Shown: positions 26,731-59,691 of the stretch, in pieces
How positions within the stretch are numbered: position 1 is the stretch's first letter
How the letters are laid out: the number at the start of each line of letters is the position of its first letter
NCBI RefSeq assembly: GCF_000003605.2
Contig: NW_003144288.1
Location: 372,924-432,614 of the forward strand
Direction: 5' to 3'
Length of the DNA stretch: 59,691 nucleotides
From: Saccoglossus kowalevskii
Taxonomy: Eukaryota; Hemichordata; Enteropneusta; Harrimaniidae
Made by a program: the position numbers and the translations under genes
Notes under the pieces: generated by a model
Seen by the model: only the letters and a program-made list of their open reading frames with translations
Database searches by the model: none
What the model was told of the DNA's origin: nothing

Positions 26731-27994
26731 CATAGAAACTAATCCTTATAAATGTTTTCCACAATTTAATTTAGTCCAACTGTATTTAAAAAAAAATAAT
26801 CATGTTTTTACATCAATAAGCCTTCAAAAGAAGTTTTATTTCTGCTATTGAGATGTGCTGTGAACTATCTTATCTTCTTTCATGAAATTCTTTTGTTTCC
26901 ATTTAAAAAAAAAAAATGTGCACTGACCATTTTTTTTTTCGATCCCAACTAAATAATAGTATTTTTAGAATTGTTAACACCCTATAACTATATACTGTTC
27001 TTATTTGAATTAAGATCTATTCATTTCAGCTCTTAAAATGTAAACCATGGACAAGTGCTTTTTTTTGAGTGAGTGAAAATTTCGCTTGGCTCCTACAACA
27101 GTGTTGGTGAATTCCACGAAATTCTGCAGTCAAAATTGAGCACTTTACAGTAACTTTACAATTTTTCTGTCCCAAAAAAAGCTAGAATTTCCTGGAAAGT
27201 CAATTTTACCATTACATGTAAAAATAGACACTTTTTAATTTTATGCATTCCAACAAAAAATTCATTTTGTGTTAGTTATTTTCTGTATATATTAGAAGAA
27301 TTCATGAAATGTATTTTTCAAAACAATGTTTTATTTTGTGCTGCCGTAATTGACAATTTTTTTTTTTTTAAGTGTGACAATAAAAAAATTATATATTGTG
27401 AATGTCTTGTTGGTACTCTCGACTCCAGTGATTAATATTTGATTGAAAAAAAAAATATTTTGCTGAAAGTCCGTTTGGTTGATTTTACCTTTTCCTGGAG
27501 TGTATGTCTAAATTTCAATAACCTAACTTGAAACATTAAAAGTATACCGGTAGCATGTTATCATGCCTGGGAGACATTTTGTCCTACTCTCAATCATTTT
27601 CAATATGCGGCTCATAGCGACGTACACAATGCGGGTAAAATACTTTTTTTGTTTACGTGAAATTTGAACATGTTCTGCGTGACAACCACTGCCTTTTAAG
27701 GGGTTAAGTTTTAACAGATTTTTGTAGTTACATGTTGGCAAAATATTCTACCATATGGTTTGCATTCCAGGTATATTTATGGCTCTGTTTACAAACATTG
27801 TTGCACCAAGATTGATCATATTTGGATTGGACATAAAATTTAAAGCTACATGACGTGCAATGAAAATATGTGTCGATACTTCAATTTGATTAAAATAAGA
27901 TCTTAATTATGGCCGTTTTTTTTTATATATTTTATGAAGTACCACGGGCAGAATTATGGAGAACTTAGGGTGCCATACAAATGTACTTAGGTTA
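26731..27994. other. Intergenic AT-rich sequence
   Basis: No gene seen. Includes poly(A)/poly(T) runs and a decayed family B MITE (about 27600-27704) recognised by GCTCATAGCGACGTACACAA and GACAACCACTGCC at its right end. Confidence 0.5.
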
Positions 27995-29150
27995 GGGATA
28001 TCTCCGTGCAATACTTAGTTTCAGGGTATCTCCGTGCAATACTTAGTTTCAGGGTATCTCCGTGCAATACTTAGTTTCAGGGTATCTCCGTGCAATACTT
28101 AGTTTCAGGGTATCTCCGTGCAATACTTAGTTTCAGGGTATCTCCGTGCAATACTTAGTTTCAGGGTATCTCCGTGCAATACTTAGTTTCAGGGTATCTC
28201 CGTGCAATACTTAGTTTCAGGGTATCTCCGTGCAATACTTAGTTTCAGGGTATCTCCGTGCAATACTTAGTTTCAGGGTATCTCCGTGCAATACTTAGTT
28301 TCAGGGTATCTCCGTGCAATACTTAGTTTCAGGGTATCTCCGTGCAATACTTAGTTTCAGGGTATCTCCGTGTAATACTTAGTTTCAGGGTATCTCCGTG
28401 TAATACTTAGTTTCAGGGTATCTCCGTGTAATACTTAATTTCAGGGTATCTCCGTGTAATACTTAGTTTCAGGGTATCTCCGTGTAATACTTAGTTTCAG
28501 GGTATCTCCGTGTAATACTTAGTTTCAGGGTATCTCCGTGTAATACTTAGTTTCAGGGTACTCCGTGTAATACTTAGTTTCAGGGTACCTCCGTGTAATA
28601 CTTAGTTTCAGGGTACCTCCGTGTAATACTTAGTTACAGGGTATCTCTATGTAATACTTAGTTACAGGGTATCTCTATGTATTACTTAGTTTCAGGGTTT
28701 CTCTATGTAATACTTAGTTACAGGGTATCTATGTAATACTAAGTTACAGGGTATCTATGCAATACTTAGTTACAGGGTATCTATGCAATACTTAGTTACA
28801 GGGTATCTCCGTGTAATACTTAGTTACAGGGTATCTCCGTGTAATACTTAGTTTTAGGGTATCTCCGTGTAATACTTAGTTTTAGGGTATCTCCGTGTAA
28901 TACTTAGTTTTAGGGTATCTCCGTGTAATACTTAGTTTTAGGGTATCTCCGTGTAATACTTAGTTTTAGGGTATCTCCGTGTAATACTTAGTTTTAGGGT
29001 ATCTCCGTGTAATACTTAGTTTTAGGGTATCTCTATGTAATACTTAGTTTTAGGGTATCTCTATGTAATACTTAGTTTTAGGGTATCTCTATGTAATACT
29101 AGGTTTCAGGGTATCTCTATGTATTACTTAGTTACAGGGTATCTCCATGT
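27995..29150. repeat. 28-bp minisatellite array, about 41 units
   Basis: Unit GGGTATCTCCGTGCAATACT plus TAGTTTCA. Units on the left carry GTGCAATAC, the middle ones GTGTAATAC, then diverged TCTATG/TTACA units, then a block with TTTTA. Variants are in blocks, as expected from local unit duplication. Some units are shortened. Confidence 0.95.
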
Positions 29151-30950
29151 TTTAGGAATCAAATTTCCCCAAACTTTTGCTTATCTTCATGCCACATGAA
29201 TATTAATGTTTTTAAAAATAAATCGTGTATAACTGTATATCCACTTATGGTTTTACGAAAACACAGAAACTGGCGTCAAGTTCAACCAAGTTTCATAAAA
29301 CATTGACTTACCACGTGAACGTTACCGAAACTATCCAATAAGTCTTGTATACATCGGATGATTTGTATTTGAAATAAACCAGAGATTAATGTAAAGTTTC
29401 ATCAAGTTTGGTTAAACTTTGACTAATCACATGCCACATGAATATTTAAGAAAGCCAAAACTTTCAAATAAATCTGATTTACTAGTATCCAATGTTTTTT
29501 TCACATATCAGGTCGTCAATATATCATCAATGGTGATAAAGTTTGGTCTAACTTGGAGTGCAAATCAATATTGTACGCTGATAAAACTAGAGTATTAATA
29601 TAATTATTATTTTATTGTTAATATAGCCGTCTGGTTTGATAAAGTTTCGTCATACTTAACCTAAATTATACACGTACAACAGAGACTTGCGTCACTGACA
29701 GTTGTCAATAATTGTAACCTTTTGTAAACTTTTGAAAAACTACACTTTTTTCATTTGTTAAAATACAAATATTTCGTTAAACATAATAAAAATATCATTA
29801 ATCTTTCAATGTATTGTATCGTTTATATTTCAGTCAAACTTTACAATATAATAATTTTATTAACACACAACAATCCTCAGAAGGGACGAAAAAGATTACA
29901 ATTCGTTAAATCGTTGTTCCTTCCATGTTTACTCGGTGAACAAGTGACACAATTTTACCGGGTGGTTCCGAAACTTCTTTGCATTTCCCTAAAATATCAG
30001 TCGCAGTATGATGATTTTTGTAGACTAGGATGTCAAAGATACGAGTAATTTCCAAGCAAATTATCATAACAAATAATCGTTTCAAATACATGTTGCTTTC
30101 CAGGTGAGTAGGAAGACGAGAAATTAATTTTATGCAAATTTGCCGTTTTCGCGAGCGTTTCATTTTGGCACTTCGAGCAATACTTTCTGAGACGTCTGAC
30201 AGACGACGGATCAATGAAAGAATTCATTTTTTTCACACAATTCACTCACAGCGTTAACTAAAAATATATAACATGTAGGTATTCGAATGACATCTTCACT
30301 GTGAAATACTGGTTTGAATATAAGCAGCCACAAAATCTGGGTCTCATTCAATTTCTTAAATTTGCTTTCAGTGTCAAGTTCCTTTCCTTCAAAGTATAAA
30401 ATTTAATTTTTTTAGGAGTCTGTATGATTTATAATATATTTTTCCGTATTAACTGTTAGTTGCCATTTTGTTGTGTACATTGTATATGGAAAATTTATCA
30501 AGACAATTTTGCAAACCGGGAGGGACACTGTCTTTGGCATGGTTTATATTTTTTTCTTGGTTTAAACTAAAATTCGTAATTTATGCAAGTTGTTTTGAAA
30601 CCCAAAACGTGGGAATGGCCTAAAACTAATATTTATATGCATAAACATATCCTTTCCTGTTTCCCCTGTATCAAAACAAATGTACAACTTGCTGGCGATA
30701 ACGCCCTCATGTGAAACTATGCGGGAACTATAAAAAGACAACTTTGATGACGTCATTATCACCATATTGGTCAGGTGACTGAGCGTTGTTAACAAACGTT
30801 ACTTGTATTTCGAGAAACAATTAACAGTTTATCAGCGACACCCATTGAAATGTTTTTGGTAAACATATCGTTGGTTGAAAATGGATAAACTACGTATCGT
30901 TGTTCTAGTAGAATTCTCTGAAAGACAAATAAAAGGCAATGTCATGTAGT
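29151..30950. other. Intergenic segment without a supportable gene
   Basis: AT-rich to about 29870, then a slightly more CpG-rich patch (29880-30250) with overlapping open frames of 60-100 codons on both strands. On the - strand one of these reads MNSFIDPSSVRRLRKYCSKC. No family, splice context or repeated copy supports it, so I leave it unannotated as a gene. Confidence 0.45.
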
Positions 30951-31534
30951 CAGCTGACCAGTCACATGACTAGTCACATGATCTCTTATATACAACAAGC
31001 CGAACATTTGCTAGATTGTCTAAAATCGTGTTGTCGAAGTCATATTTTTCAAGCAAATATCGTAAGTAAATGTGGTATTTTATTATTTTATTTATTAAAG
31101 GAAATTCAGTGATCACCGTGTGTATACGATGACTGCCAGAGCTCGAACGATTCGTGCGTCATTTGTTCTCCTTCGCCGGTGATCGTTGGCGATAAATCGT
31201 TTGAACTTAAAATGGCGCTTGTTCACAGACCTGTAAAATACGTCTGATGTTCAGTCGAAATGTTATCGATGTTTGCTATTTCTGAGTTTTTATTTTCGCG
31301 ATGTTTACCTACCTAACTGTCAGGTGTAGTGGTTATAATGAATCACAGTCTCTCGACAAAGGGCTGCGACTGACTCGACCAGGGAGCTGTAATGAGTTTC
31401 TTGAAGTAGCACGTTCATGTCGCGACCTTGATAGTGGTCTGGCACATTTTACCCTATTCTCACATCTCGCATGCCGACGCCGTGATGCTACTAAATCCAG
31501 GCTGATCACAAAATATGTTTCCGCAAGTGAGTTA
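30951..31534 (+). promoter_or_regulatory. Promoter-like CpG-richer patch with CACATG E-boxes
   Basis: Two GTCACATGA(C/T) E-box sites (about 30963-30985) are followed by TTATATAC near 30995, then by CpG-rich DNA to 31530. Good donors follow at AAATATC|GTAAGT (about 31063) and CCGCAA|GTGAGT (about 31530). This could be a non-coding 5' exon of ATP7 or of a non-coding RNA. The open frame across 31301-31624 does not join the ATP7 coding frame. Confidence 0.3.
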
Positions 31535-38626: not shown

Positions 38627-40045
38627 TTTAATATTCAGTAAATGCAATTTTGCTAAGTAGACTTCTATTGAAGATGCACTACTAAAAATAAAATAGAGCA
38701 AATACCATATAACCCCCCCCCCCCCTACTAGTAATTTACAAACATTTTGTATGAAAGAATCCTCAAAATCAATGAACGATGACTATTTCATGGCCAAGTG
38801 TAAGCAGTTGTTGACCCCACTACGTGTTCTCATCAAACTGCATTAATCGATTAGCCTTCTCTAAAGTTGGGGGCCAACAAGCTTACACATGTCTAGAATA
38901 ACTTATTTGCTTTTAGCCTTGATAAATGCAGCTATTTACTTAGGGAGGACATGCATAACATACATATACATGTATCGTTCACTAGCTCACAATAAGTGGA
39001 ATATATAGTATGGTTTCTATTATTAACTATTGTTGAGATAAATCACTTTTTTCTATTCATAGATGTTTTAATGTGGATGTTTAATAAATATCGAGTTAAA
39101 TATCCACCGCATAAGGAAATTAAAAGTCTGAAAATACTAAACTACTTTCTAGGTGTAGGTTCACGGTGTGTGAGTGCATGAAATCGTGCCAGACAAAACA
39201 ATGTTAAGTTAAGCCACTATATAGTATTTGTACCCCTCTTGGATAATACCTCTTTATTAAAATTGGTCTGCCCCTAAATCAGAGCAGTACACAACAATTT
39301 TGTTTGTAACATGATTAATTTTAGCATGATGTAAGATAATGCTATAATACAAGCTTTGAATTGATGTTTGAAAACATACGATATGTATACAGACTGCCTC
39401 TGTCTGAGCAGAATAACCTGAGAAACTTATCTTGTTTAGATATACGTTTTATAATCAGTTTGTGGTTTCATGTATGTTTTATTGTACTATCTGTTTCCCT
39501 AAAGTGTTGCCTCCTAAAAACATAATTGGCCTGTCCCTTGGGTATTTCTATTAATCCCATTAAATGCCACCAGCCACATGCCTATATACTTTCAGGGATG
39601 AACCAATGATATTTACCTTATTTTGCCAAACTCTCAGAAAAACTTAGTTTCCGTTCCGTCTTTCCTCAGCCTTCTGAAATGTAATTGATTGGTTGCATTA
39701 TGGCTCTACCCCATATCCTGTCATTTATTTGCAATGTACATCAGATATGTCCATTGCCCGCCGTGATTGATGCATCGCTTCATGAATATTTCATATCCAT
39801 CACATTCCACATCTGTAATTAAATTAAACTCAATACAAAGTGACAAATTTTTTTTTTTTTTTGTATGAATATTCCGTCACAAATGTAGCAAGCATTTTGC
39901 ATCAATATTCATGAGTTTCCTGATCATTCTTTGTTTCGATGTAAGAGATCTTATATTAGAGTCAAGGGACTTCGCAAAGAGATTACTGCATTTTACTATC
40001 GGGGCTCGCATATTGAGCTTTTGATCCAGCGCAAGATGTATTTAT
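38627..40045. other. Region upstream of the ATP7 first exons
   Basis: No coding exon seen. A C-run at about 38712-38725 and a T17 run near 39848. The last 300 bp probably include the promoter of first exon 1a; I see no clear TATA box or initiator. Confidence 0.4.
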
Positions 40046-40091
40046 AGATACTTACTCTGTAGTTGGAAATTACGTCTTCCGGCAGAGCAGC

Positions 40092-40138
40092 ATGTCTTGG
40101 AACCGGTATAGTAGAAAGGGAGTCAGCGAGAGTGAAAG
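40092..40138 (+). CDS. ATP7: ATP7 alternative first coding exon 1a
   Basis: ATG in the context CAGCATGT begins MSWNRYSRKGVSESER, where the last Arg is completed by the A at 45569. It is 47 nt and ends GAAAG|GTATTT in phase 2, in frame with 45569-46278. Read-through without splicing stops at 40284-40286. It resembles exon 1b in length, phase and sequence (MS-x-NRY-x-basic-K). Confidence 0.5.
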
Positions 40139-40300
40139 GTATTTTTCAGGATATTCCTCTGGACTGGAATTACAACTAACCTTGTTCACGCTGCATCATG
40201 GGTTGATCACGGAGTATGCATGGCTTGCTTGCGTATTAATTAATGCATGTAGTCTACCTACTACTGCACTCAAGATAACAGCATAACTCTTCTTCGCACC

Positions 40301-40347
40301 ATGTCGGTTAATCGATATGATAAGAAACGTGACAGCGTACACGTAAG
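40301..40347 (+). CDS. ATP7: ATP7 first coding exon 1b
   Basis: CACCATGT gives a good start context. It encodes [16 protein letters not shown], the Arg being split (AG plus A). Donor CGTAAG|GTAATT, phase 2. The neighbouring CAC|GTAAGG donor would leave phase 0 and break the frame. If neither 1a nor 1b is used, ATG at 45582 in exon 2 could serve as start. Confidence 0.6.
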
Positions 40348-43300
40348 GTAATTTTGTTTTTTTAATACTACCGGGGGTAATAATATTCTAAACTTAAATT
40401 TTTTTTTTTTTATAATATTTGTGGAAAAGTGTAAGTGTTGAATTATGAACACAACACCTACCTTTATCACAATAATAAACTTTGATTTGAAAGGTATTTT
40501 TAGAATACTTTGTGATCATACTGTAAAATATAGTAATATTCTTGTGCCAGGTGACAGTTCCATCCATTGAATGTTGTCTGTATGGATTATTTTATGTGCA
40601 ACTCATTTAAACTTAGTTACCTTTCAGTAAATAAATCTACTGAAATATTTTCATATGCTATAATTTTGCAGAGTTTGCAAAGATTTTCTGTAATTTGTTA
40701 TTGTTAATTTTTGACCAATCCTGATATTCTGGTCCAATTGTATGGGAACAAACTGCAATGGTAAAAAATAAGGAGTTTTGTCTATAGAGTTGAAAACAAC
40801 AATTCCAAACAAAAAATAAAATTATAGTTTTCAGTTAGGTTTAAAAAAAAAATTCTGATTTTGTTTTTCATTGACTTTATTTTGATTGATTTTTTTCTCA
40901 AAACTGCATTTTTGTGGTATGCATGGAGGTATACAAATGACATCCTTTGAGGCTGGAGACCAATCGTTTAGAATTGTTCACAAAGATGAATAGGTGAAAG
41001 CATTTGTTGACCAAATATACTCAAAGTGTTGTGTTAGCAGGACACACAACAACATTCGTTAAATAAAAAAATAAAAACCACTAATACCATGTGTATTAGT
41101 GATTGTTACTATACGTTCCAAAATCACCAATCCACATGTGTTTTAAAGAATTCACATTTATTCCTTGAATGAATAATTAGACATATGCTACAAAACAATG
41201 TTTTCATGTCATGGTAAACCATAATCTAATTTATTCATCAATATGCAATATCAAACAAATAAAAAATGACATGTTCTCATTCATATGTCTTGAAGACCAC
41301 CATACTACAAGTCTCGATTTTTAAAATTGAAAACATAAATTAAGACGAAAAATAGATATAATGGTATCTTTAACTCTTTTAAAGTCAGCGTTAGTTATCT
41401 TTCTCAGATTAAACCCACGTAACTTTTTCCATAATATGATTAAGATTTTGATTGAGATCTGATAAAAATTTGTTTTTTTAAATATTTAAAAATATTTTTA
41501 AAAAGTGGAAACAACAAATGGAAAAAATTCATTCCAACATTTTGGCTGAAGAAAAATATATGGCATCCAAAAAAAGTTAAATAGAAAAATACATCTTAGA
41601 AATACAAGACTGAAAATGTCTGCTCTAATCATTAAATGTGATTTGTATGTAGAATAGGATTGATTTCATGATTCCTGCTTATTTGTATTTCTAATATCGT
41701 CAATAATTAAGTTAATACATTAGTAATAGAATTTGAGAGCAGCATGCACAGTGAGTCCACATTCTTGTCAATTATGGATAGATTTTAAGATTAGAAATAG
41801 TTTACCCTGAAGTTGTCATTCACTTAACATCGTTGTCCTGATGAATAATTGAAAGTTCACGTATGTCTTGACTTTCTAATTTAAATTGGTCGCACTCTGA
41901 GATGGTAAAATCTTTTCTGGAGAACTGAAGCAACATCCTAGGCTAAGTTGTAGGTGATATTGGTACAGCGAAAACTGCCACAAATGAATTTTTCTCCCCA
42001 GGATACAGAGAGCATACGACCACAGTGCTTTTTTTCTACCACTACACTGCTAGTCTGACATCGCCAGTCATTAATTATCTTGACTGGCAATGTGGTTTAC
42101 ATGTATTTCCACTTTGCCATTGTTGATGTTTTTTTAATTAAATTGTAAAATCACTGAAAAATCAAAAACTTTTATGTACTGTAGAATACTTTATTTTCGC
42201 TTGGAATAAATTTTCGCTGATGGAATGATTCAGTGAAAATAAAATCCGGCTATGAACTTGGTTACTGTAAAATACTTTATTTTAGCTGGAATTAGTTTTC
42301 GCTGAAAAGACATTTCTGGTACTTTGTATGGAATTTATTTTCACTGAATGTAAAATATAGACAAAAAGGTATATTCGCTGAATCATTCCTGTCAGCAAAA
42401 ATTAATTCCAAGCGAAAATGCCTACTGTGAATGCATTAAATATTGGCTGGTCTTTAATTTCTCTAGTTTTGCTGATAAGTGAAATTCGCTAAATTAAATT
42501 CACATGATCTTGTAAAATAGAAAACATTGTTGTCCTGCCAAGTTCGTGAAATTGCTCAAAACATCAAATACCGGTAGTAAAAATAAATGGTATTACAGTA
42601 TTCTTTTCCTGCCAGAACATATTTTAAAATTTTCCTCATAATATTTTGTTGGTCATTTTGACACTTACATGTATGCACATAATTTCTCATTGTTTAAAAA
42701 TATGAAAAAAATGATATGAATTTAATTTGTGAAAAGTTGACAAAAGTTGACTTTGGCATTCGGAGAAGGTTTATTTAAAATAATTTCAATTTCAATGACA
42801 TATATGCTTGCATGTACAATCATTTCATGTACCCGACTCTCTGCAATAGGTGATTTTCCGTTCACCACGAGATTTTGCATATTGCGTGAAAGGCGCGGAC
42901 TGAACGTCTGTCATAAAGATCAAACGATTTGATTTAATTTATAATTATTTTTTTATAGCTCAATGTCATAATGGCGATTCTTGAGGGGAACATTGCGTTG
43001 AGACACCCTAACTTAATTGAAATTAACCATCATCACATGTGTACAGCGCATTATGTTTGACGAATCCCATGCGATGTTCTGAAGCCGCTACAACGCTACA
43101 ATGACCTTTGTTTGTCCTGTTTTTTCATTCAATTTCACGCATAACGCGGGAACTCAGTCAACGGAAAATGGTCTATTTTATTGACTAGGAATTAGAAATT
43201 CATAAAATAGAAAAACATTTTAAAAGCACTTTTAAGTCCTCCATTGATATTTGTTGCGCAAAATTGGGTCACTCAAGAAAGTTTAACTTGGCAAAAATTG

Positions 43301-46300
43301 ACTTATATTGGAAAATTTTGTTACTTATCCTGAAAAATATCTTTCTGTCATGCTGGCTCCCTTATAGAAAATACCAGGATGTGTGACCTTTAGAGGTCAT
43401 ACGTAATGCCAGGATGTGTGACCTTTAGAGGTCATATGTAATGCCAGGATGTGTGACCTTTAGAGGTCATACATAAGGCTTATTGAATCCTAGTTAAACT
43501 TGACTTCCAATCAAAAAATTAAGAGAAACTACTGAGTTTTGAAAAGTTTAACAAAGCCCAAACTTTCAATGAAGTCTCTCTCAGTGATTTGACATTTGAA
43601 CCAGTATTACCCCCTTTACCCCCCCATACCTTACACACATACAACAATATCTTAAGAGAACTGTACCTAAAACATCAGAAATTACACTGTTGAATTTTAT
43701 TATTATGTCCTACATTTTTATTTTTGTGTTTTCAGCTGTTATGATTTATATCTTTAAGTAGTTCACAGAATATCAATGTCCGTTCATGCAAATATACTTT
43801 AAAATGTGTCTCGTGGTACCCTTGAGTGATCTTCACTTAATCATAATTATAGTCTCTCGAGATCGATGATAAATTATTCAATGTTGTCATAATCTTTTTT
43901 AGTTCGACTGTCTGATTTTTGATAAAATAATCATTTATTTTTATTCCATCAATTCACCCACCGGTGATGACCTTATTCAAATGCTGTCAATCCACATTTA
44001 TTGATGTCTCTTTTTATTGATGAGAAATAAAAATAGTTACGCTTTTGAATATTTCTGTTTTTTTTTTTCAATATTACCCGGTACACACTTCTTCAGTTTG
44101 AAAATATCTACAACCATGTTTAACACCCTTGTCTGAATTGCATGGTTTTACAAGCTGATGTACTGAGAGGTTGTGTACTCAATCTCGGTAAAATGCACAG
44201 ATCTGATAAAAGAACACAGACATTTGCAAATTCATTAAAATGAGACTCATTTTGACCACCTTTTCACCACCAGACTTTCTCACTCTAGTTTTTACTCAAA
44301 ATTTTGGTTATTATTGTCCAAATCTTCTGAAGCAAAGTGCAGACTATAATGGGACTGTTTTGTGAACTTGTGATGAAAAATGGAAACTGGTAGTGAAAAG
44401 GTTAAAATCACCTAAATCATTTAAACATATGCACTACTAATAGAGAAAATACGTACAGTAGCTTTATATAACTTGATTCAATGACCCTATAGAGGTCTGT
44501 GCTTGATCGTCATGCATACATAGTTTTTCCTGTACCAGCTGCACATGTTGGTGTTTCACTATATTGTAAGCATCCAGGCAATGCCTTGAGCAAGAAAAAT
44601 GCACGAAAGCTTGCATGGTCTTTAAATGTGCAGACTGATGAATCAGAACTCTTTTCTTCTATCATTGTTACAACAAATCTTATAGCAGTCTGTTAAAAAA
44701 TTGAGAATTCCAATCAGGAACACATCCTCGCTGATTTATTCTCCGTAAAAGCTCAATTAATCCATGGTAGTAAAAATAATTGCTTTTCACACTGCATGGA
44801 TTATTACTTTGCTCAATTAAAATGCATGCACTTATGTACACGTGGTTTCCATGGGAATTTAAGTCATATTTTAATGATTCAGGAGAAACAAATACAATTT
44901 TGGGTTTATATTATTATTATTTTATTTCCAATTCTCTAAAAATAATATACCCCATTAACCTGGGGGAACAGGTTACAATGCAAAAGTTACAGGCGTGACT
45001 TTAATTGTCTCACTAAAATGTTGTTTATTGGAGATGTACTTTTAATAGAGAAAATATGGTAATAAGATACAGTGAGAATTATTTGATTTAGATTTTTGAA
45101 TTTTCCCGCCAAAATGTTGGTGTCGCAATTTGTGCATTTTTATGTGATTTTCATGTATTTCTTTTTCAATTCTGGACCAACTATTCATAAATTCTCATTG
45201 CCTACATGACTTGATCAAATGGGTTTTTTTTTGAAGAAGAAAAGGTTAAAATTTTGGTGTAATTAATTCTTGTACGATTTTGTTTTGTGATTACTCAAAA
45301 CAGCAGTGTTTATAATGAGACGATGTAAACAAAATTTCTCTAGCCATAAATTATTCCTGCGATAAGTTATGCACAAAAGCTTCAAACACAAACTAAAAAG
45401 TTATAATTTAAAGTTGTGATGGTAAATTGCAAATTAAAAGGATATTATTTAATCATCATTATTACTAGCTGTGCAAATTAATATACACTGCAAATTAATT
45501 TTTTAATTGATGTGTACACATAACTGTGCAATAAGTGTTTACATTATTGTAATTTTATTTCATTTCAGACAAAACTGGACGATGTTTCCCCAGTTGTTAT
45601 CGTACCGTCAGAAAAACGTGGAAGACACCGTCCACTTAGACAGGGTAGCAGACATTCGAGTATGGGGTATGAAATGCAGGTTGTGCGCCGAAACAATCAA
45701 GAGTACGTTGACAGGACAGCTTGGCGTCAAAGAAATCACCCCCTTCCTGAGTGAAAGCCAAGTACGTGTCATCTATCGTTCAGACTACACAACAGCAGAG
45801 GTTGTCAATGATGCTATAACTGGAATTGGATATGACACATCGCTTCTCGAAGACAAACCGCTCATTATGATCCCTAGTGACAACTATGCCGAAGGTCAGC
45901 CGCTTCTTGCATCTCTCGAAGACTTGTCAACATCAGAACTTGTCTCACCTAGAACATCCCTGATAATGTCATCCAAACGAAACTCAGCATTACTACAGAC
46001 TGTTTTAAGCAGAGGCATCACACCGGAACAACTGAATGCTGCCCTCACAGGCAGGAGTACACTTCCACCAGAAACGACAAACATTTTCGTGGATGGAATG
46101 AAGTGTGTGGCATGTGTGACTGCAATCGAGGGACAACTCACAAAACAAGATGGCGTCAGATCGGCTGATATCTCACTTGAGAAGAAAAGAGCGCAAATTG
46201 ACTATTTCCCAGAAAAAGTCAGCCCGGAAGAGTTACGAGAATTGATACACAACATGGGGTACGATGCTCGGGTGGAAGGTAAGTGAAAAAAACAACAAAA

Positions 46301-49300: not shown

Positions 49301-52300
49301 ATTTTGGTGCACCATTTTATACCTTTTTATCTACCGGTACTTTTCTATAATTTTTTTTGTTAATTTTGGATCAAATGGATATAATTTCCTATTGGCTATG
49401 GTCTCGAGCAAAATTGTTGAAAAATAGAAAACAAATTATGTGAATTATTTTGTAAAGGTGACAAAAGTTGTCTTTGGTGCTGAATCAGATAAAATCGAGA
49501 TTTGTAACTTCTGTAAACATATTTCACATTCACAAGTATCTAAAAGTTAGGCACCTTGCATGTATCATATTTTATCTACTGTAAATACTTTATTTTCGCT
49601 TGCAACTAATTTTCGCTGAAGTAATGATGCAGTGAAAATAGAATCCAGCGACTATAACTTTTTTCATATATTTCACATTAAACTCATCAAAAATCAGTGA
49701 AAATACATTCCATACAAAATACCCAAAAAGTCTTTTCAACGAAAATTAATTCCAGCTAAAATAAAGTATTCCACAGTATATACATATCAAGCGTCAGAGT
49801 CAACTTATCTCATCATTCACAAAATGTTTTCATATTTTTTATAAAATTTTGATCAAGAATTTTAGCCAGTAGGTACTACTAGTAGGTACGTTATTAGTCT
49901 AAAATGATAAATAAAGATATAGAAAACCACGTAAAATCTTGGCAAGAAAAATTGTGCTCATAAAAATGTTACCTTAAGTGACCTGTAAAACAACTTTACA
50001 TGGTTTAGTGTGAGGATGGTACTTGAACTTGAAACCCCATTCATACCAATGTGTTGTCTCACATATGCCTCTATTAATGATGTGCTTCTAATACAACAAA
50101 TATGGTAGGCTTTATAAAAAAACATCAGCCGAGCTGTGGGCATGGTTTTATATCCAGTGTTCTCCCAAGGTACATGCCCAAATATGGTTGCTAGTTGCAT
50201 AATGATAATTAGTAATAATAATAGTAATTTGCATACTTATTTTATTGTAATTAATAGAAATAATTCACATATAAATATCATTTATTGTTTTTTAACCTTT
50301 TCACCAGCGGACTTTCTTGTCCAAGTTTTTCTGCCCTTTTTTTCTTGTATTCTTCAATATTTCTGGAAATGAACCCTAATTTTGGAGCCAACAGACACAA
50401 TTTGAGTCAATTTTCAGTTTTTACTCAAAAATTTATCTAATTTTGTCTCAAATTTTCTAAAGGAAAGTACAGACTATAAATGGGACTAGTTTGTGAATTT
50501 GTGATGAAATAAGGAAACTGGTGGTGAGAAGGTTAAAGGTGCCCTGCATGGCATTTCAGTGGCCAAGCATGGTAAACCTCTTGTATGTTGTATAGAGTAT
50601 AACACTGCATAGATATGACAACACATCCACAGCATCATACTGTCTTGCACTCTGTTATACCTGTATAAATGTATATTTTTGCAGACCTGGTAGAATCAAA
50701 TGAGAATCGCACTGACGAATCACCGGTGCCGAGGGAACCTGTTGTCCGTTTTAACATCACCAACAACAACAGCGAAAACGAACACCCAAATGTCATTATT
50801 GAAATCCCAGAAAGGGCAAAATCGGAAAAATGTATTTTGAAAGTTGAAGGCATGACTTGTGCATCTTGCGTTAATACCATCGAGAAGAACCTAATGAAAC
50901 ATACAGGTACTGATAACACTATGGAGGGCTGTTGCTATGACAACTCTCTTTATTTGGGCACTATATTTATGAAAATCCATCCAAATTGAGGATATGAATT
51001 TTTATCATTACATTATTATTATTATTATTATTATTATGGGTCAAGATCATTGGAATACTGAAAATTGAAACCAAAAAATGGAGAAACTGAAATTGAAAAA
51101 AAAATCCAAATTGCCACTTTTAATCCATTTGAATACATTCACAATATGACCAGGAAACTTGTATCATGATATTTATGCTCAATGGCTGATCCATCAGGTT
51201 CACTGGGGCATATGTCTACATAAGAATATGATATACAAAAAAGCCTAAAATATGGAATATCATTTCCCCATTTATACATATATTAACAAATGTTTGAATT
51301 TTAATGTGAAGTTATTTACAATTAAACTATTATTACTTGACCATTATCAGTTTATAAAACTGAATGTTAAAACATATATATTGTTGGACAGTCACTTATC
51401 ACATATGTTGTACTGTATATTCTGTTGACACATGCAGTTTAAAAGAAATAACTGCTGAATATTATACCAAATTTATCCCAGAAATATTATTCATTCATAG
51501 TATCCTTAATTGATTTAGCTAATCTGTAATTTTGCAAATTTGAGATGTAGCTATATTCTCATAATTACATTGTTGGCACTAAATTAAAATTCTGTTAATT
51601 TGTGCATTGAGCCAAATTTGCTAAAAAAGCATGTAGTTATTTCTAGATGTTTTTATAGTATTGCTTAAGAAATGAACAGTGCATTAGTTTCTACACTGAA
51701 TTGAGATGACTGCTCATGACTGAACATTTAAAATTTCAACCAATCAGTGATGACTTTCCAAGCTTACAATTTGCATATACCAGTACATTGTCTAATTAAT
51801 AGGTCCTTGACCAGGTGTTTGTCACATATTGGCCAATGCAATCAATCATTTGGGTTTTGAATCTTTGTGTGATAGCAGCTGATCAGACTTTTTGATGACC
51901 TGGTTGGTATATTTCACAACACAAACCATTTGATGTTTTTGGTGGGACTTGATTGAGATGTGACTGTTTTGTTTTAGCTGTACATTGTTATGTGCTCTAG
52001 TCACCTGGTGTTCTGATGTCTGTACTGATAGCAGACATCTTTACATCTTTGCACATGGATATCTATTAGGACTAGACCATTAGACCATGCAGGGGGGGGG
52101 GAGCAGGATTAAGCATTTCAAACAAATAATCAACCCACAAGCCTCCCTTGGGAAATTTAATGGTCTGTTCCTTATTCAGTATCATGGAATTGTGCATGTG
52201 TTGTACATGTTATGTAATAGGTCAAAGGTCATGGTGGTCAAGAGTAAATTTACTTTTTTTCTTTAATTGGCTGCATTCTATTTGTGTATTTTTTGACAGG

Positions 52301-55300
52301 TATTGAGTATGTGTTGGTGGCATTGATGGCTGGTAAAGCTGAAGTGAAGTATAATCCTGTGGTACTTGATCCATCACAGATTGCAGAGATGATTGAAGAC
52401 ATGGGGTTTGAATCATCTGTTGATGAAAGTGAATCAACTGGTGGTACTTTAGATTTAATGGTGAGTCAGTCAGCAAACCACTCTACATGTACATGTATGT
52501 ATTGAATTGCTGTTTGTTACATGACTGCCGAGTGATGGCATTTATAAGCCCATTTTTTTTTTCACCAACATGATAGTTATGCTGACGCCACTGCCCCTTT
52601 GAAATGAATTTACAATCAGATCTTGCTAAGGTATTATAGATGCATGTTTATGCTGACTCACATGATGTTTTTGCTTTTTTATTATATGTATACAGTCTTT
52701 GTTTCACACTGTTAAAGTTTCAAAGCTCGACCACCAATGGAACATACTAAAAAATGTGAAAATGAAAAAATAATGTATCATTGTAAATGCAAATCTGTAA
52801 ATAAATAAATGAAAGAATAAATACATAAACAAACAAACAAACAAATAAATAATTATTAAATTGGATTTATAAAAGATGGTGCTAGAATTTTTATATAATT
52901 TACTATTTAATAATTAACATTTCACAACCGTATTCAATCTGTACTACTTTGTCTGTAAAACTGTCTTGTCTAGGATTGTTGAAAACAATGAAACTAAGCG
53001 TTACAAACAAAAACAAAATATAAAACAACTTTAAGCTCTTTTTTTGAGAAACACGCCTCCTTCTGGGTACATACACACAAATTTCAAATTCAATGAACAC
53101 AAACTCTAGAAGCTATAAAAAGTGAAGAGCCAAACAGAAATATGTCCATTTATGAACATAAAAATCATGTAGGAGAACATTCATATCCACCCTTAGTGTT
53201 TTAATATTTAAAAATCACCTTTTTTTTCAAAAGAAATATTCTCTAGTTGAGCTTGAAAATAACAGTATGTAACCAACACTGTCTAGATACATAAATAGTA
53301 AAAACTTAATTTTGGTGATTGGTGTACTTGTGAACCTGCATCTATTCTTCAAGTTCATTGAACCTGTGGAAGGAACACATCATTTTATGAATTAGTTTGG
53401 GGTTGAAAGGGATGGAAATTTGGATGGTCACATACAGGCATATTGGTAAAAATGTAACTTGACAAAATTCAGGTCACTAAATCCAAATTTGGTTGAATGA
53501 AAAGAGCTCAGTGCATACCAACACACCTTTTTTATGTGAAACCATAGATTAAAATATTATCTGAAAATACAGTGAATATTTTTTATGAAAATTATAAAAT
53601 ATTTACCCTGGAAAACCTTCATCCTCATTCAAGGATTACGTTTTCAATTGCTGTAGAAACAATTTGAGTAATGCATATGTTAACATATTATGATTGATCA
53701 AGTTGTTTTCAACTTTCATTTGACTTGGTGATGTCACTTCCTCTATAGCAACCATAGTGACATCACTTCCTCCATAGCAACTGTTGCATCATGATGATAA
53801 TTGGTATATTCTACCATAGACCCTCCAATAGACTGGAGGGTCTATGATTCTACATGTTTTTTTTTTATTGGCAAATGTTTATAACTTACCTTTGATGTTT
53901 TATTTCTTTTCAACAGATTCTAGGGATGTCGTGTGTATCCTGTGTAAATTCCATTGAGTCTATCGTCATGGCAATTGATGGAGTTCACTATGCCTCTGTT
54001 TCCCTGGCAACCAGTCGAGGTTCTTTTAAGTTCAACCCATCCGTAATTGGTCCTCGGGACATTATGAAAGCAATAGAGGACGCAGGGTTTGACGTTTCTC
54101 TACCAAGCAAAGATGGAAGTGCATCCACCATGCTGGCACACAAGCAGACAATACGCAAGTAAGTCAACACTCACCAGTATATTCCCTCGTGGGCTTGCGT
54201 CCAACATGCTTTGGTAAATGCCAGGATTCGAACGTCAAATTTATATATTGATTTATCATTAATCAGAGTTCGACATGTTCTAAAATACGGTAAATCTTTC
54301 AAGACGCAGAGATGAGGACTATAATCTAAACCCCTGATGTATATATTTTTGTCTTGTTATAGGTGGCGTAATTCATTTCTGATTTCATTGTGTTTTGGTG
54401 TACCAGTTATTGTTATCATGTTGTATTTCATGATAACTGGTAACCATATACTGGTGTTCCCTGGAATGTCGCTGGAAAACTTGCTTCTTTTCTTATGTGC
54501 AACACCTGTGCAGGTGAGTGTCAATAACTGTCTTTATTCTACCTGTTGTGTTCAATGATTTAAAAAAATAAAATAATCATTTACATGGACCTGTAGTGTA
54601 AATTTATTATGCATTGGAACAAAACAAGCATGTGCAGTAAGTTCATTAAACAAAATAAAATCTGTTTCAAAGATTTTGTCAAAATTTGATCAATCTGGTT
54701 GGTTGAACATTTGGCAGAAAAAAATAAAACATTTTTTTTTTTCAATTTTTACCTTGCCCGTACCATCAAAGATGGAAGGGAAAGGTATATTTAAGGGAAA
54801 GATTTCCGTTCGTCCGTTAATAATTGTTTTTGTGTGCACAATAACCTTACTAATTCTACTCTAAACTTTATCAAACTTGGTCACCTTATTCATCAGTATA
54901 AAGTCTTCCCTGAGTATGAATGACAGATGTCCTATATGAAAATATCATGCAAAAATTGAGAAAATCTGATAAAATATTTTGACTGTCTCTACTTGACTGA
55001 TCACTGGTGATACACATTCAAAGGTCACTGATCTCAGTGGAAACATGCATTGTTGTCTGTGTTGAATGAAGCAAATCATTTATCTTGTAATAATATCATT
55101 GTAATGTATCTCTCAAATCCACATGGGGAATACTAAAACCAACTCATGGAGAGAGTTTTTGCACAGTCTGATACACATTTGCAAACCTACCAATAAAATC
55201 TTTACAGAAAACAAGATGTCAGAAAATCAATATAAGCACTCCTATGAACTGGGTGCCAAACTTTGATCAAGATCTGAAGCTGATAAAAAATATGTTTATC

Positions 55301-58300
55301 AAATCAAAAACAATACATAACAAATACATAAAAAGCAAAACGTTGCATCCACATTTTGAAAGGAAAATTGTACTCAAAAATATGTATTCTGTTTTTGACA
55401 AACAGTTCATTTGACAAATGAAAATTCACAAAAATTTGTTTCAGCTATTAGAACAGAATGATAGAGCTTTTATAATACTAATTTAAAAACGCACTTCAAA
55501 ACAAAGATTGCAGTGTTTGAAATTGTAGATTCTCGGGAGGCAACAGTACTGTTGACTTCTCTCTCCACTGGACACCAACCAACTAACTGACTATTTAAGT
55601 TGATTTGCATTCAAAGCAGAGCTTGCAACATGATAGCTATTCATAGAGGGCGTTTTTTTCTTACTTTTCAGATAATACAGTAGTCACACAATTAATATAT
55701 AATATAAAGGCAGTTCATATTTGTCTCAGTGAATCATTGATTTTAGACATACACCTGTACAATATACTTGGACAAAAGCCAGCTAAGATTTTCTGTTATC
55801 TTGCATGTTTTATGAATCTATTCACGTCTAAATGCAGCACTTTTTTTCTGAGATGAGGCATTTGTTTTTATACTAAAATATCTGAATTACTTTGAATAAA
55901 GCTGGGAATTATGCCCCTTAAAATAATTAACAAAAATTATCAAGGATGTTAGGTAGACTGATTTCCCACTGTTGTTTCAACCCCAAAACTTGTTTGTATT
56001 CAAAATTATTTAAGACAATGCATAGTCATATTGAAACAAACTATGATAAAAAAAATAATATTATATAACATTATATTATATGTTTTTTTGTCTGCAATGA
56101 GTATGTGTAATTTATCCCCACCGATATATCAATGGGAACTTAAAGGGCGGTAGTCGTGAAGCAGAGTGTGTTTGAATTTCATGTAAACAAACAATGTAAT
56201 TTACACACATTGTATATGTCGCTATGATTCGCATATCAAACATAACATGGCGCGTCAACCACTGCCCTTTAAGTAAGAAAGATTTTCTTGTGATAGTATT
56301 TTAAAAGTTCATCCTTTCAGTAAAGAAAAGTATTCTGTCGCAGCCTTGTGTTCAACCTCTATTTCATTTCTATTATAGTTTATAGGCGGCCGTTACTTCT
56401 ACATCAATGCGTACAAAGCTTTGAAGCACGGATCAACCAACATGGACGTATTAATAATGTTAGCGACTAGTATTGCATATCTGTATTCATGCATTGTTGT
56501 CTTGATTGCTATTGGTCAGCAACTGAATTACAGTCCGATGACATTCTTTGACACCCCACCGATGTTATTAGTGTTCATCTCGCTTGGCAGGTGGCTGGAA
56601 CACATTGCAAAGGTGAGATTATATTGCACTAGATGGCATTTTAGTTTAGTTTAGTTTAGTTTAGTTTAGTTTAGTTTAGTTTAGTTAAGTTTAGTTAAGT
56701 TTAGTTAAGTTTAGTTAAGTTTAGTTAAGTTTAGTTAAGTTTAGTTAAGTTTAGTTAAGTTTAGTTAAGTTTAGTTTAGTTTAGTTTAGTTTAGTTTAGT
56801 TTAGTTTAGTTATCACCCAAGGAGTATAAAGAGTAGCACAGATTGCATCACATGCAATGCAGTTCTAATAATAATTGTTTTTGCATGCTAACGTATTATT
56901 TGTAAAAGGTCATACTAATGCACATCTTGGTTCAGGTCACCAACCTAGTCATGTCTAAGTGCAGTAATCTAATAATACTAATTTGTCATTTTTTGTTGTA
57001 GGCTAGAACATCTGATGCACTCACTAAGTTATTATCTCTGCAAGCCACGAATGCTACCCTGGTGACCTTGGGCGAGAATCTAGAAATACTTACAGAGGAA
57101 CACATTGATATTGAATTAGTACATAGAGGTGATATTCTGAAGGTTGTCCCCGGTGGCAAGATACCTGTGGATGGTAAAGTAATTGACGGAACGTCCATGG
57201 CCGATGAATCACTCATTACTGGGGAATCTATGCCTGTACTGAAAAAGCCAGGTAAGTGAAAAATTTGTTTGTAAAAACAAAAGAAAAAATGATGTTGGTC
57301 ACTGCGGGGCATATTTTATAATATTGGTCTTTTTTTTTTTTTTTATGAAAAAGTATGCGTCAACTCTTTGAATGCTATCATTTTTCTTGCTGAAGGTTTG
57401 GAGCAAGTTTTTGCACATTTTATGTGTTTTTCTATGATTTCTGTTAATTTTGGAGCAAATTGACTTTATGTTCCATTGGCTATAGATCTTGAGAAATAAA
57501 AAACAAATTAGAGAAAACATCAAAAGTGGGTGGGTGTAAAAAGACTTTACACTCGGACCAAACCATTTTCTCGTCTTGGATGTATTTTTTTTCATTTTCT
57601 GTTATTTTTGTCCATGATTGGATAGAAAAAAAAAACGAATATCAACTACTCCAAGATTTTTTTGACTTCATAAAAAATAAAATCGTTTTTGTAAGATAGA
57701 AACTTTTTGAGATCAAAACCCCCCCACCCCCAAACTAAAGGAAATAAGTTTTTTATCCGACATCGATCTTTTGACTCCGTCCCTTAGGCAGGTTTATTTT
57801 GTGGAACATGACAAAAGTTGACTTTGGCATCAAAAGTGTCAATATGAAGAGTAAGAAATGCATGCACTTTACAACGATGCAGTTAACATCATTTGAAATT
57901 GCTTTCACACCAGTAGCACATGGTCTTACGTATTATACGAGTAATAGAGGTGTATCTATGGTAAAAGCGAGTCATATTTTAATTATGTAGTATACAATCA
58001 ATGTGATTTTTACTTTATGTGCACTTCTAATAGAGAAAATACGGTATCCATAAAAAAAAGCCATTTAGCAATTGTATATAATATGAGGTTATTACGAGGA
58101 TACCTCAAAGTATGCATGAAGGCAGTACAGTAGGAGTATCGACCGACTGTGTACTGTCATCGTTTATACTTTGAGGTGTCCTCGTAACAACCTTATTATT
58201 GTACATCTTTTCCTTCCAAGGATATATCATGGGAATGCCAAAATCTGAAATGTTTAGAACAGAATCAGCGAACTTCTTTGTGTGGATTCCGGTCAAACCA

Positions 58301-59627
58301 TGATGGCAGCCATGCTTGTTTTTATTATTAGAGGACGCTTAGGCGCGTAATCATTCCATATTTGGAATTCGCATTTCCTAATATGGTAGGATGAAAATAT
58401 CACCAAATTACGGCACTTATGGCCTTACGGTGACAGATGTATAATAATACTGTGGGTGACTTTATTTTACCTGTGAATAATTTTTCGCTGAAACTCACAA
58501 TGAGTGTTAACATTTATTTTTACTTAATTTCATCAAATCATAAAATTTACTTTCTGTTAGTTTTATTTCACATTTACCTCTTTACCTCTTCATTGAAAAT
58601 AGAAAAATAAACTTCAATTGAAAATAAAACATCTTTACAGTATTTCCTTATCTAAAAGGAGTTTTAAACAATGGTCACCACTGTTTTACATGGCCATGTA
58701 TTGTGATGGCTGTTTTACTTTGATTATAGGTGTGAATGTGATTGGTGGATCTGTTAATCAAAACGGAACTCTACTGATAGAAGCCACTCATGTTGGAGCT
58801 GATGCCACCTTGGCACAGATTGTTAAACTTGTGGAAGATGCACAGACTTCAAAAGTAAATATCCTTCTATTGTTTAAAAAAAGTGATTATTCAATATATC
58901 ATTCATTACTAACACTGGTTCGATATTTTGGGTCAATTCAATACATAAAGTGAACAGATACAATGATGTTCTATATAATGTGGTATATGTTATCATTTTT
59001 CCAATCCTTTAAACACTAAAATCAACTTTTGTCACTTTTGCACAAAATTAATTGTTTGCACAAAATTAATTACTGTAAAATACTTTTAGCTGGAATTAAT
59101 TTGCGCTGAAAAGACTTTTTGGTGTGTTTTGTATGGGATTTATTTTCACTGATATTTGAAGAGTTTAATGTGAAATATAAGAAAAAAATGGATTTTATTT
59201 TCACTGAATTATTCTTTCAGCGAAAATTAATTCCAAGCGAAAATAAAGTATTCCACAGTAATTTTTTTCAAAATTCAATTTTAAAAATTTAGATCTAAAC
59301 CTGTAGCAATTGGGAAATAAGAAAGAAAGAAAGAAAATCATAAAATAATGCGTACAAATTTACGAAATTTTGACTAAAAATTGTAGCTGGAAACTAGGAA
59401 ATAAATCAAAACGCAAATGATTGATTCCAATTATCAGAAATGTTCCACATTTATAAAAAAAATATTGAAATGTATCGTTTCAGGCCCCAATTCAACAAAT
59501 TGCTGACAAGATATCTGGTTACTTTGTACCGGGCATTATTATCCTGTCGACATTGACATTGGCGATATGGTTGGTTATTGGATATATTGATTTCTCAATC
59601 ATACCAGAGTTCCGTGGACAACATCAG
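40301..59627 (+). CDS. ATP7: ATP7-type copper-transporting P1B-ATPase, N-terminal half (762 aa in window)
   Basis: Role (family): pumps Cu+ from cytosol into the secretory pathway or out of the cell using ATP. Exons: 40301-40347, 45569-46278, 50685-50906, 52300-52460, 53917-54158, 54363-54513, 56379-56612, 57002-57251, 58730-58854, 59484-59627; all phases agree. Seen: four heavy-metal domains with CRLC (52-55), CVAC (195-198), CASC (311-314) and CVSC (386-389); TM1 about 466-485, TM2 about 498-530, TM3 and TM4 in 533-589 ([35 protein letters not shown]); actuator with TGE at 662-664; TM5 from [20 protein letters not shown]. The last two metal domains align best with mammalian domains 5 and 6. 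CPC, DKTG and the ATP-binding domain lie past the right edge. Mammalian homologues have six metal domains and about 1,460-1,500 aa. Confidence 0.92.
42178..42600. repeat. Cluster of three palindromic MITE copies
   Basis: A truncated family A copy (42178-42264, reverse), a family A copy with one eroded end (42264-42426) and a family A2 copy (42424-42600, ending GGTATTACAGTA) lie head to tail, joined at their TACTGT ends. Confidence 0.75.
43374..43478. repeat. 35-bp direct repeat x 3 with everted AGGTCA half-sites
   Basis: Three near-identical units beginning CCAGGATGTG, each carrying TGACCTTTAGAGGTCA, i.e. TGACCT and AGGTCA separated by 4 bp. AGGTCA is the nuclear-receptor half-site core (known). 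The arrangement could be a regulatory cluster or simply a small palindromic tandem repeat. Confidence 0.85.
44256..44404. repeat. Family C MITE (internally deleted)
   Basis: Begins CCACCTTTTCACCACCAGAC and ends CTGGTAGTGAAAAGGTTAA, with an interior shared with 50292-50536 (CTTCTGAAG..AAGTGCAGACTATAA). Confidence 0.7.
45569..46278 (+). CDS. ATP7: ATP7 exon 2 (metal-binding domains 1 and 2)
   Basis: 710 nt after CATTTCAG, ending GAAG|GTAAGT in phase 1. Domain 1 runs from about [13 protein letters not shown] to [11 protein letters not shown] Ser/Leu/Glu-rich linker of about 70 residues follows. Domain 2 runs from [14 protein letters not shown] to [10 protein letters not shown]. An in-frame ATG at 45582 is the fallback start. 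Confidence 0.93.
49577..49778. repeat. Palindromic MITE, family A (reverse orientation)
   Basis: TACTGTAAATACTTTATTTT ... AAAGTATTCCACAGTA, with interior in the same orientation as 12552-12757. Confidence 0.85.
50292..50536. repeat. Family C MITE, intact copy
   Basis: TTAACCTTTTCACCAGCGGA at the left and CTGGTGGTGAGAAGGTTAA at the right: inverted ends with TTAA at both borders. Reference copy for 7563-8498 and 44256-44404. Confidence 0.75.
50685..50906 (+). CDS. ATP7: ATP7 exon 3 (start of metal-binding domain 3)
   Basis: Acceptor TTTTTGCAG; ends ACAG|GTACTG, phase 1. A 50-residue acidic/Asn-rich linker precedes [20 protein letters not shown]. The domain is split by an intron after LMKHTG, aligning with mammalian domain 5. 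Confidence 0.92.
50907..52299 (+). other. ATP7 intron 3
   Basis: 1.39 kb with an (ATT)n run near 51013-51037 and a G-run near 52090. No exon seen. Confidence 0.6.
52300..52460 (+). CDS. ATP7: ATP7 exon 4 (end of metal-binding domain 3)
   Basis: Acceptor TTTTTTGACAG; ends TTAATG|GTGAGT, phase 0. Encodes [20 protein letters not shown] and [16 protein letters not shown], nearly matching the corresponding part of vertebrate ATP7 domain 5. Confidence 0.93.
52461..53916 (+). other. ATP7 intron 4
   Basis: 1.46 kb. Near its 3' end are a duplicated TGATGTCACTTCCTC / TGACATCACTTCCTC segment (about 53730-53785) and a perfect 13-bp hairpin (53815-53846). Confidence 0.6.
53917..54158 (+). CDS. ATP7: ATP7 exon 5 (metal-binding domain 4)
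   Basis: Acceptor TTTTCAACAG; ends CGCAA|GTAAGT, phase 2. Encodes [20 protein letters not shown] through [12 protein letters not shown] and [14 protein letters not shown], the link to TM1 conserved with mammalian domain 6. Confidence 0.93.
54363..54513 (+). CDS. ATP7: ATP7 exon 6 (TM1 and start of TM2)
   Basis: Encodes [20 protein letters not shown] (TM1), a short lumenal loop ([15 protein letters not shown]) and [11 protein letters not shown]. Donor CAG|GTGAGT, phase 0. The loop is shorter than in human ATP7A and ATP7B and lacks their Met/His clusters. Confidence 0.92.
54514..56378 (+). other. ATP7 intron 6
   Basis: 1.87 kb. Contains a family B MITE (56140-56272) about 100 bp from the acceptor, and a fragment with CGTTCGTCCGTTAATAATTG near 54810. 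No exon seen. Confidence 0.6.
56140..56272. repeat. TTAA-flanked MITE, family B copy 2
   Basis: TTAAAGGGCGGTAGTCGTGA at the left and GTCAACCACTGCCCTTTAA at the right: inverted ends of about 16 bp with TTAA borders. Confidence 0.75.
56379..56612 (+). CDS. ATP7: ATP7 exon 7 (TM2-TM4)
   Basis: 78 codons, phase 0/0. [20 protein letters not shown] is the conserved kinked TM2 end. TM3 follows in [20 protein letters not shown] and TM4 in [20 protein letters not shown]. Confidence 0.95.
56641..56812. repeat. (TTTAG/TTAAG)n microsatellite
   Basis: Pure TTTAG pentamers at both ends enclose a block of the 10-bp alternation TTTAGTTAAG, starting 28 bp after the exon 7 donor. Confidence 0.95.
57002..57251 (+). 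CDS. ATP7: ATP7 exon 8 (actuator domain)
   Basis: Acceptor TTGTTGTAG; ends CCAG|GTAAGT, phase 1. Contains [20 protein letters not shown] and [20 protein letters not shown] (662-664) is the dephosphorylation motif of P-type ATPases. Confidence 0.95.
57526..57784. repeat. Truncated foldback element (reverse copy)
   Basis: Reverse complement of about 17363-17630: GGGTGGGTGTAAAAAGACTT ... CCCCCACCCCCAAACTAAAGG ... GTTTTTTATCCGACATCGAT ... GTCCCTTA. One inverted end is missing. Confidence 0.75.
58085..58195. other. Imperfect hairpin (111 nt)
   Basis: GAGGTTATTACGAGGATACC...CAAAGTAT pairs with ATACTTTGAGGTGTCCTCGT...AACCTT over 28 bp with two mismatches. Inner GCAGTACAGTA and ACTGTGTACTGTC extend the stem. 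Foldback element or structured RNA. Confidence 0.5.
58257..58449. repeat. Dispersed repeat, family D copy 2
   Basis: High similarity to 7052-7275 in the same orientation, with small internal deletions. Confidence 0.75.
58448..58642. repeat. Palindromic MITE, family A variant
   Basis: Ends TACTGTGGGTGACTTTATTT and AATAAAACATCTTTACAGTA are inverted; the interior diverges from families A and A2. Confidence 0.6.
58730..58854 (+). CDS. ATP7: ATP7 exon 9 (end of actuator)
   Basis: Acceptor TTGATTATAG; ends TCAAAA|GTAAAT, phase 0. Encodes [20 protein letters not shown] and [20 protein letters not shown], highly conserved in P1B-ATPases. Confidence 0.95.
58855..59483 (+). other. ATP7 intron 9
   Basis: 629 bp, about a third of it a family A MITE (59071-59260), plus a short GAAA run near 59320. 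Confidence 0.65.
59071..59260. repeat. Palindromic MITE, family A
   Basis: TACTGTAAAATACTTTTAGC ... AAATAAAGTATTCCACAGTA, same orientation as 2762-2972 with small deletions. Confidence 0.85.
59484..59627 (+). CDS. ATP7: ATP7 exon 10 (TM5; last exon in window)
   Basis: 48 codons, phase 0, acceptor CGTTTCAG, donor CAG|GTAACT. Encodes [20 protein letters not shown] and [17 protein letters not shown], then a lumenal stretch. The CPC-bearing TM6 should be in the next exon, outside the window. Confidence 0.93.
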
Positions 59628-59691
59628 GTAACTATAGGCTTTATTTACAATACCGTAAAATCTGTATTAGAAGCCGCATCTCTAATATAAA

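Follow-up and report, generated by a model that had tools for sequence, protein, structure and literature searches.

A related pair of candidate first coding exons upstream of an ATP7-type copper ATPase gene in Saccoglossus kowalevskii

The ATP7-type gene and its relatives in the genome

The stretch of DNA analysed here, referred to below as the window, comprises 59,691 nucleotides of a Saccoglossus kowalevskii contig and carries a series of ATP7 exons on its forward strand. The one designated exon 2 (45569..46278) encodes two heavy-metal-associated domains (GMKCRLC and GMKCVAC; the Pfam HMA model was matched twice) and ends in the donor AAG/GTAAGT, which agrees with an earlier reading of the exon at 45569 as leading into an ATP7 metal-binding domain. 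Downstream of it are the first part (50810..50923; GMTCASC) and the second part (52293..52463) of a metal-binding domain and a metal-binding domain with GMSCVSC (53917..54159), the bounds of all three being approximate and those of the first set by similarity. These are followed by a membrane exon (56379..56612; FIGGRYFY...GRWLEHIAK) with 68% identity to human ATP7A, an actuator-domain exon containing TGES (57005..57253), an exon with a 42-residue stretch (58729..58863) and the last visible exon (59481..59678), all on the forward strand, before a run of N starts at the window's end. The membrane and actuator exons together show 68-70% identity to the human ATP7A sequence. Judged by its CxxC HMA domains and the presence of membrane and TGE exons, the gene downstream of the exon pair described below is an ATP7-type (P1B) copper ATPase.

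Neither the window nor the examined pieces of its contig (C3527 in the 572-Mb animal assembly) up to 502 kb showed the CPC membrane motif or the DKTGT phosphorylation site, and an 11.3-kb N run intervenes. A query taken from the later P-domain exon of a gene on another contig, C2924, matched only C2924 (in two places) and, distantly, C2730, so that the C-terminal half of the window's gene is either in the gap or absent. Because the 11.3-kb N run starts where the window stops, the reading of a truncated gene was set aside rather than excluded.

When the membrane exon was searched against the genome, three places were returned, i.e., the window's gene, C2924:497036 (+) and C2924:457743 (-). At least three ATP7-type genes are present in the genome, two of which lie head to head on C2924 (484481-505935 on the forward strand, and from 461590 down to at least 451830 on the reverse strand). 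For organisms before chordates, the introduction of PMC10729821 gives one copper ATPase. Additionally, a second tandem set of metal-binding exons with 76-84% DNA identity was located beyond the N gap, at C3527:451153-456121. The first domain of this set has lost its CxxC (GMKSVLH), one TAA stands inside the first match, and the alignment lacks the region of the exon-2 acceptor and ATG. The three compared stretches are otherwise open, and their mismatches by codon position (41, 23 and 52) show a third-position excess. No exon-1-like segment was found in the 7.2 kb visible ahead of this tandem copy, and none in the visible, gap-interrupted DNA that precedes either C2924 gene, where the check covered the best 8 candidates per strand or AG/GTR donors only. 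One scan of viral contigs with the ATP7 membrane exon gave no confirmed match.

Other features of the window include, farther upstream, one exon from a gene for an EF-hand protein (14210-14533, +), for which the EF-hand models scored below the Pfam cut-offs, a 28-bp satellite at 27984-29150 (42 copies at 96%) and a 10-bp repeat, TTTAGTTAAG, present in 17 copies at 56640-56811, directly behind the ATP7 membrane exon. Rfam models at gathering scores gave no match, and a tRNA scan with the bacterial code found no tRNA. The mitochondrial contig of the assembly (C4830; 17,037 bp) carries COX1 on the strand opposite to most of the other protein genes recognised by eye, and has ATA at positions occupied by isoleucine elsewhere, and AAA at a position for lysine. 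Its gene order is deuterostome-like, and these features taken together would fit a hemichordate.

Two segments of equal length in phase with exon 2

Ahead of exon 2, two segments on the forward strand were identified as candidate first coding exons. Exon 1a (40092..40138) encodes MSWNRYSRKGVSESE followed by AG, leaves phase 2 and has the weak donor AAG/GTATTT, and exon 1b (40301..40347) encodes 15 residues followed by AG, also leaves phase 2 and has the donor AAG/GTAATT, of moderate strength. The start context of exon 1b is GCACCATGT, in which ACC-ATG is fuller than at exon 1a. Each segment measures 47 nt (15 full codons plus AG, then GTA), and the two are 209 bp apart from start to start. The acceptor of exon 2, ATTTCAG/A at 45568/45569, demands exactly phase 2, and the join of either segment to exon 2 gives 252 stop-free codons, 15 of which come from exon 1. 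Between 39000 and 45569, three candidates of 8-60 codons were found that are open from an ATG, in phase 2 and bounded by AG/GTR, exons 1a and 1b among them. The third (42812-42849) was dropped; its peptide is unrelated and its donor is GTGATT.

The first-pass annotation had reported these equal ATG...AG/GTA segments, their phase and spacing, and their fit to the A at 45569, all of which could be reproduced. Its estimate of 28-30 matching bases was corrected to 27 of 47, and the 16-letter peptides that it gave are to be read as 15 full codons per exon, the sixteenth residue (R) arising only across the splice.

At the peptide level, exons 1a and 1b share 7 of 15 residues, including Met. This likeness was compared with chance by means of equal-length, equal-phase start segments, scored with BLOSUM62 after Met at a threshold of 20 or more. 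In a second-order Markov null (36.0-45.6 kb, AG/GTR donors, phase 2, pairs within 1 kb) none of 3000 simulations reached this score (best 9), and the same was true of a second Markov set of 3000 with AG/GTR donors, any phase and pairs within 6 kb (best 12). Under a looser, first-order null on a 7.6-kb stretch, limited to phase 2 but open to all GTR donors, the score was attained in 2 of 400 simulations. The loosest null, on a 9.6-kb stretch and open to all phases and all GTR donors, gave 19 of 500. As a background of real DNA, the window and 14 pieces of 10 kb were read on both strands (290,630 strand-bases, with about 0.7 kb of overlap counted twice). This background held 20 equal-length, equal-phase AG/GTR pairs within 6 kb, of which four scored 10 or more: exons 1a and 1b, one pair lying inside a tandem repeat of 49 bp, and a genuine pair of metal-binding exons of another ATP7 gene, which counts twice because it was read in two overlapping ways. 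Redealing the residues of one peptide against the other gave p of about 0.0008. The first-pass view that so many joint matches would be unlikely by chance was upheld by the strict simulations and the real-DNA background, and is tempered by the 19 of 500 under the loosest null. Altogether, the likeness of exons 1a and 1b, measured over 15 residues only, is probably real.

The similarity runs from the ATG to about the donor. Shuffled sequences aligned as well as the exons in 6 of 500 trials, and as well as the flanks of 1a and 1b in 137 of 500 upstream and 328 of 500 downstream, which puts the flanks on a level with shuffled DNA. Because of these flanks, a duplication is something that we infer; unlike flanks are also what an old duplication is expected to leave, and their absence as duplicated DNA is thus not decisive. 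Of the six residues shared after Met, S2, N4, R5 and K9 are specified by different codons and Y6 and S12 by the same ones. The mismatches by codon position (4, 7 and 9) are too few to prove constraint, but lean towards it, and the pattern would fit an old duplication preserved for its protein sequence. Both tails contain S-x-N-R-Y-x-(R/K)-K-x-x-S, which places a serine three residues past a basic residue and might represent a putative kinase site. The second halves of the tails differ, with an acidic SESE in 1a and RDSVHV in 1b.

When further exon-1-like segments were sought in the window with a DNA pattern allowing up to 2 mismatches, 16 matches were obtained against 14 expected, and exact matches fell on the two exons only. 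A DNA search of the genome with positions 40000-40420 returned the self match only, and is blind to a copy as diverged as 1a is from 1b.

Donors, rival starts and promoter signs

Donor strengths were scored with a donor matrix, yielding 3.2 for exon 1b, 0.2 for exon 1a and 7.8 for exon 2; the donors of 1a and 1b are both without G at +5. For the region from 24 to 45.5 kb, 22 phase-2 candidates having a purine at -3 were listed, with exon 1b in fifth place and exon 1a in twentieth. These values bear on the possibility that just one of the two, more likely 1b, is a working first exon, the second being left over from the duplication. The stronger donor and fuller ACC-ATG of 1b and the weak GTATTT of 1a are in line with such a relic. 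At 27 of 47 bases, however, a relic would likely be broken in its frame, start codon or donor, whereas 1a retains all three, and four of the six residues shared after Met differ only synonymously. We consider this explanation unlikely.

The top-ranked phase-2 candidate was a segment at 30030-30103, about 10 kb upstream of the exon pair, with the donor CAG/GTGAGT and a score of 9.1. A stretch at 30600-31100 is promoter-like: it has high CpG, gives a self match only in the genome, and holds TATAAAAAG at 30729, the window's only TGACGTCA at 30748, and TCACATGA at 30962 and 30974. By eye, TATATA was seen near 30987 and GTAAGT at 31062, about 75 nt beyond. This stretch might serve as promoter for ATP7 or for some other gene. 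Additionally, exon 2 contains an in-frame ATG (45582..45584, +) with A at -3, which is a rival start codon.

These features would suit the reading that the likeness of 1a and 1b is a coincidence, or that neither segment belongs to the ATP7 mRNA, with transcription starting elsewhere and translation beginning there or at the ATG at 45582. Such a transcript might start in the 30.6-31.1 kb region with a non-coding exon, or make use of the candidate at 30030-30103, whose donor is far stronger, and the attainment of the pair's score in the loosest null also leans this way. On the other hand, the similarity of the pair lies outside both the real-DNA and the strict simulated background, the evidence for the 30030 candidate consists of its donor and start context, and the 31-kb region could serve another gene. 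We regard a coincidence or a start of this kind as unlikely.

Around both exons (39751..40500) the observed/expected CpG ratio is raised to 0.88-0.97, ranking 69 among 1179 windows of 750 bp, which is consistent with a promoter but is neither unique nor proof of one. A CpG-rich patch also lies in ATP7 intron 1 at 42500-43250 (observed/expected 1.06-1.26), where ATGG occurs in a strong context at 42971. About 30 bp before the ATG of 1b, TGCACTC (40265..40271, +) fits TGCRCNC, the core of the metal-response element. With 24 core matches in the window this is at chance level, and the element was discarded as promoter evidence. The consensus TATAWAWR had no match near either exon. Stretches noticed by eye were TATTTATAGATA, about 50 bp before the ATG of 1a, and TATTAATTAAT, about 70 bp before that of 1b; given the AT-rich DNA, TA-rich stretches ahead of these ATGs mean little.

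Since acceptor-like AGs precede both exons, their status as first exons is unproved. The AG at 40274, before 1b, has a pyrimidine fraction of 0.69, equal to that of the exon 2 acceptor; for the two AGs ahead of 1a, at 40062 and 40087, it is 0.62. Together with the promoter-like stretch 9-10 kb upstream, these AGs would suit two real exons that are internal or driven by a single promoter, the choice between them being made by splicing. None of the acceptor-like AGs before 1a or 1b, however, has a T-rich run like that of the exon 2 acceptor, and the one closest to 1b (40281) comes after AAGATAAC. A choice made by splicing appears quite improbable to us, even though the AG before 1b, being as pyrimidine-flanked as the exon 2 acceptor, slightly lowered our estimate for two promoters and raised that for splicing.

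Alternative N-termini and their possible role

The explanation that we favour, at a little short of an even chance, is that the two segments arose long ago in tandem and act as alternative first coding exons, each spliced to the ATP7 acceptor by promoter choice. That both exons are in use has about even odds, and two promoters yielding two ATP7 isoforms are plausible but unproven. The first-pass annotation had proposed duplicated alternative first exons of ATP7; of this, the related phase-2 pair, the confinement of the likeness to the coding part and the mostly synonymous changes stood, and the flanks look unrelated. The two promoters and the sorting or regulatory signal that it also envisaged are hypothetical. 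Equal use of both exons is counted against by the weak 1a donor, the ATG in exon 2, the upstream promoter-like stretch and the candidate at 30030-30103.

With alternative first exons, transcription starting upstream of 40092 would lead to use of the 1a donor and its joining to the acceptor at 45569, and transcription starting between the exons would lead to use of the 1b donor with the same phase-2 acceptor. If the 1a donor is left unused, the reading frame from ATG 1a continues for 64 codons (40092..40286, +) and reaches a stop 14 nt ahead of ATG 1b. In a long transcript spliced at the 1b donor, this would form an upstream reading frame acting against 1b, which a separate start site would therefore serve best. 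The resulting pumps would be alike but for 15 residues at the N-terminus, in front of the first metal-binding domain. Both tails probably share one basic function, which may be N-terminal handling, a serine of the kind recognised by basophilic kinases, or contact with a partner. The steps that we infer here are the duplication, the transcription of each exon, promoter choice as the switch and any effect on trafficking.

The use of alternative first exons to provide short targeting N-termini is already well known. In plectin, alternative first exons encode such N-termini (PMC8468861), and the arrangement resembles the present one in that several first exons stand ahead of shared exons and each adds a short peptide before the first domain. 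Here, in contrast, the two peptides resemble one another in sequence, length and phase and appear duplicated, and their exons are candidates. Closer to the present gene is cua-1 of Caenorhabditis elegans, also an ATP7-type ATPase of an invertebrate with two N-terminal forms. CUA-1.1 and CUA-1.2 differ at the N-terminus and in location (PMC11083455). CUA-1.2 is without the first two exons, which hold a putative metal-binding domain, whereas here no domain would be lost and only 15 residues would differ.

In vertebrates, the N-terminus of ATP7B governs apical sorting, through a signal at F37-E45 that contains NVGY (PMC10729821). The likeness to ATP7A and ATP7B lies in the variability of the extreme N-terminus, in front of the first metal-binding domain, and in a short stretch containing N and Y; the vertebrate N-termini are, in contrast, on two genes, and the NRY found here is not the NVGY motif, and no alignment supports homology between them. 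A precedent for a choice of 5' end set by copper is found in Cryptococcus, where Cuf1, when copper is limiting, yields 5'-truncated transcripts of SOD1 and SOD2 (PMC7961099). Among the matches listed by our literature search, none described alternative first exons of ATP7.

It is tempting to suppose that here one gene, by promoter choice, uses a duplicated 15-residue tail to set the location of the pump or its copper response, as vertebrate ATP7A and ATP7B do, but we consider this further step a doubtful one, with a low probability. What would be unusual, if the favoured explanation is true, is the kinship between two start exons of one copper ATPase. Should both be in use, the swap of 15 residues would provide a clean natural experiment on the extreme N-terminus, apart from the metal-binding domains, and would add isoform diversity to the set of at least three ATP7-type genes of this invertebrate.
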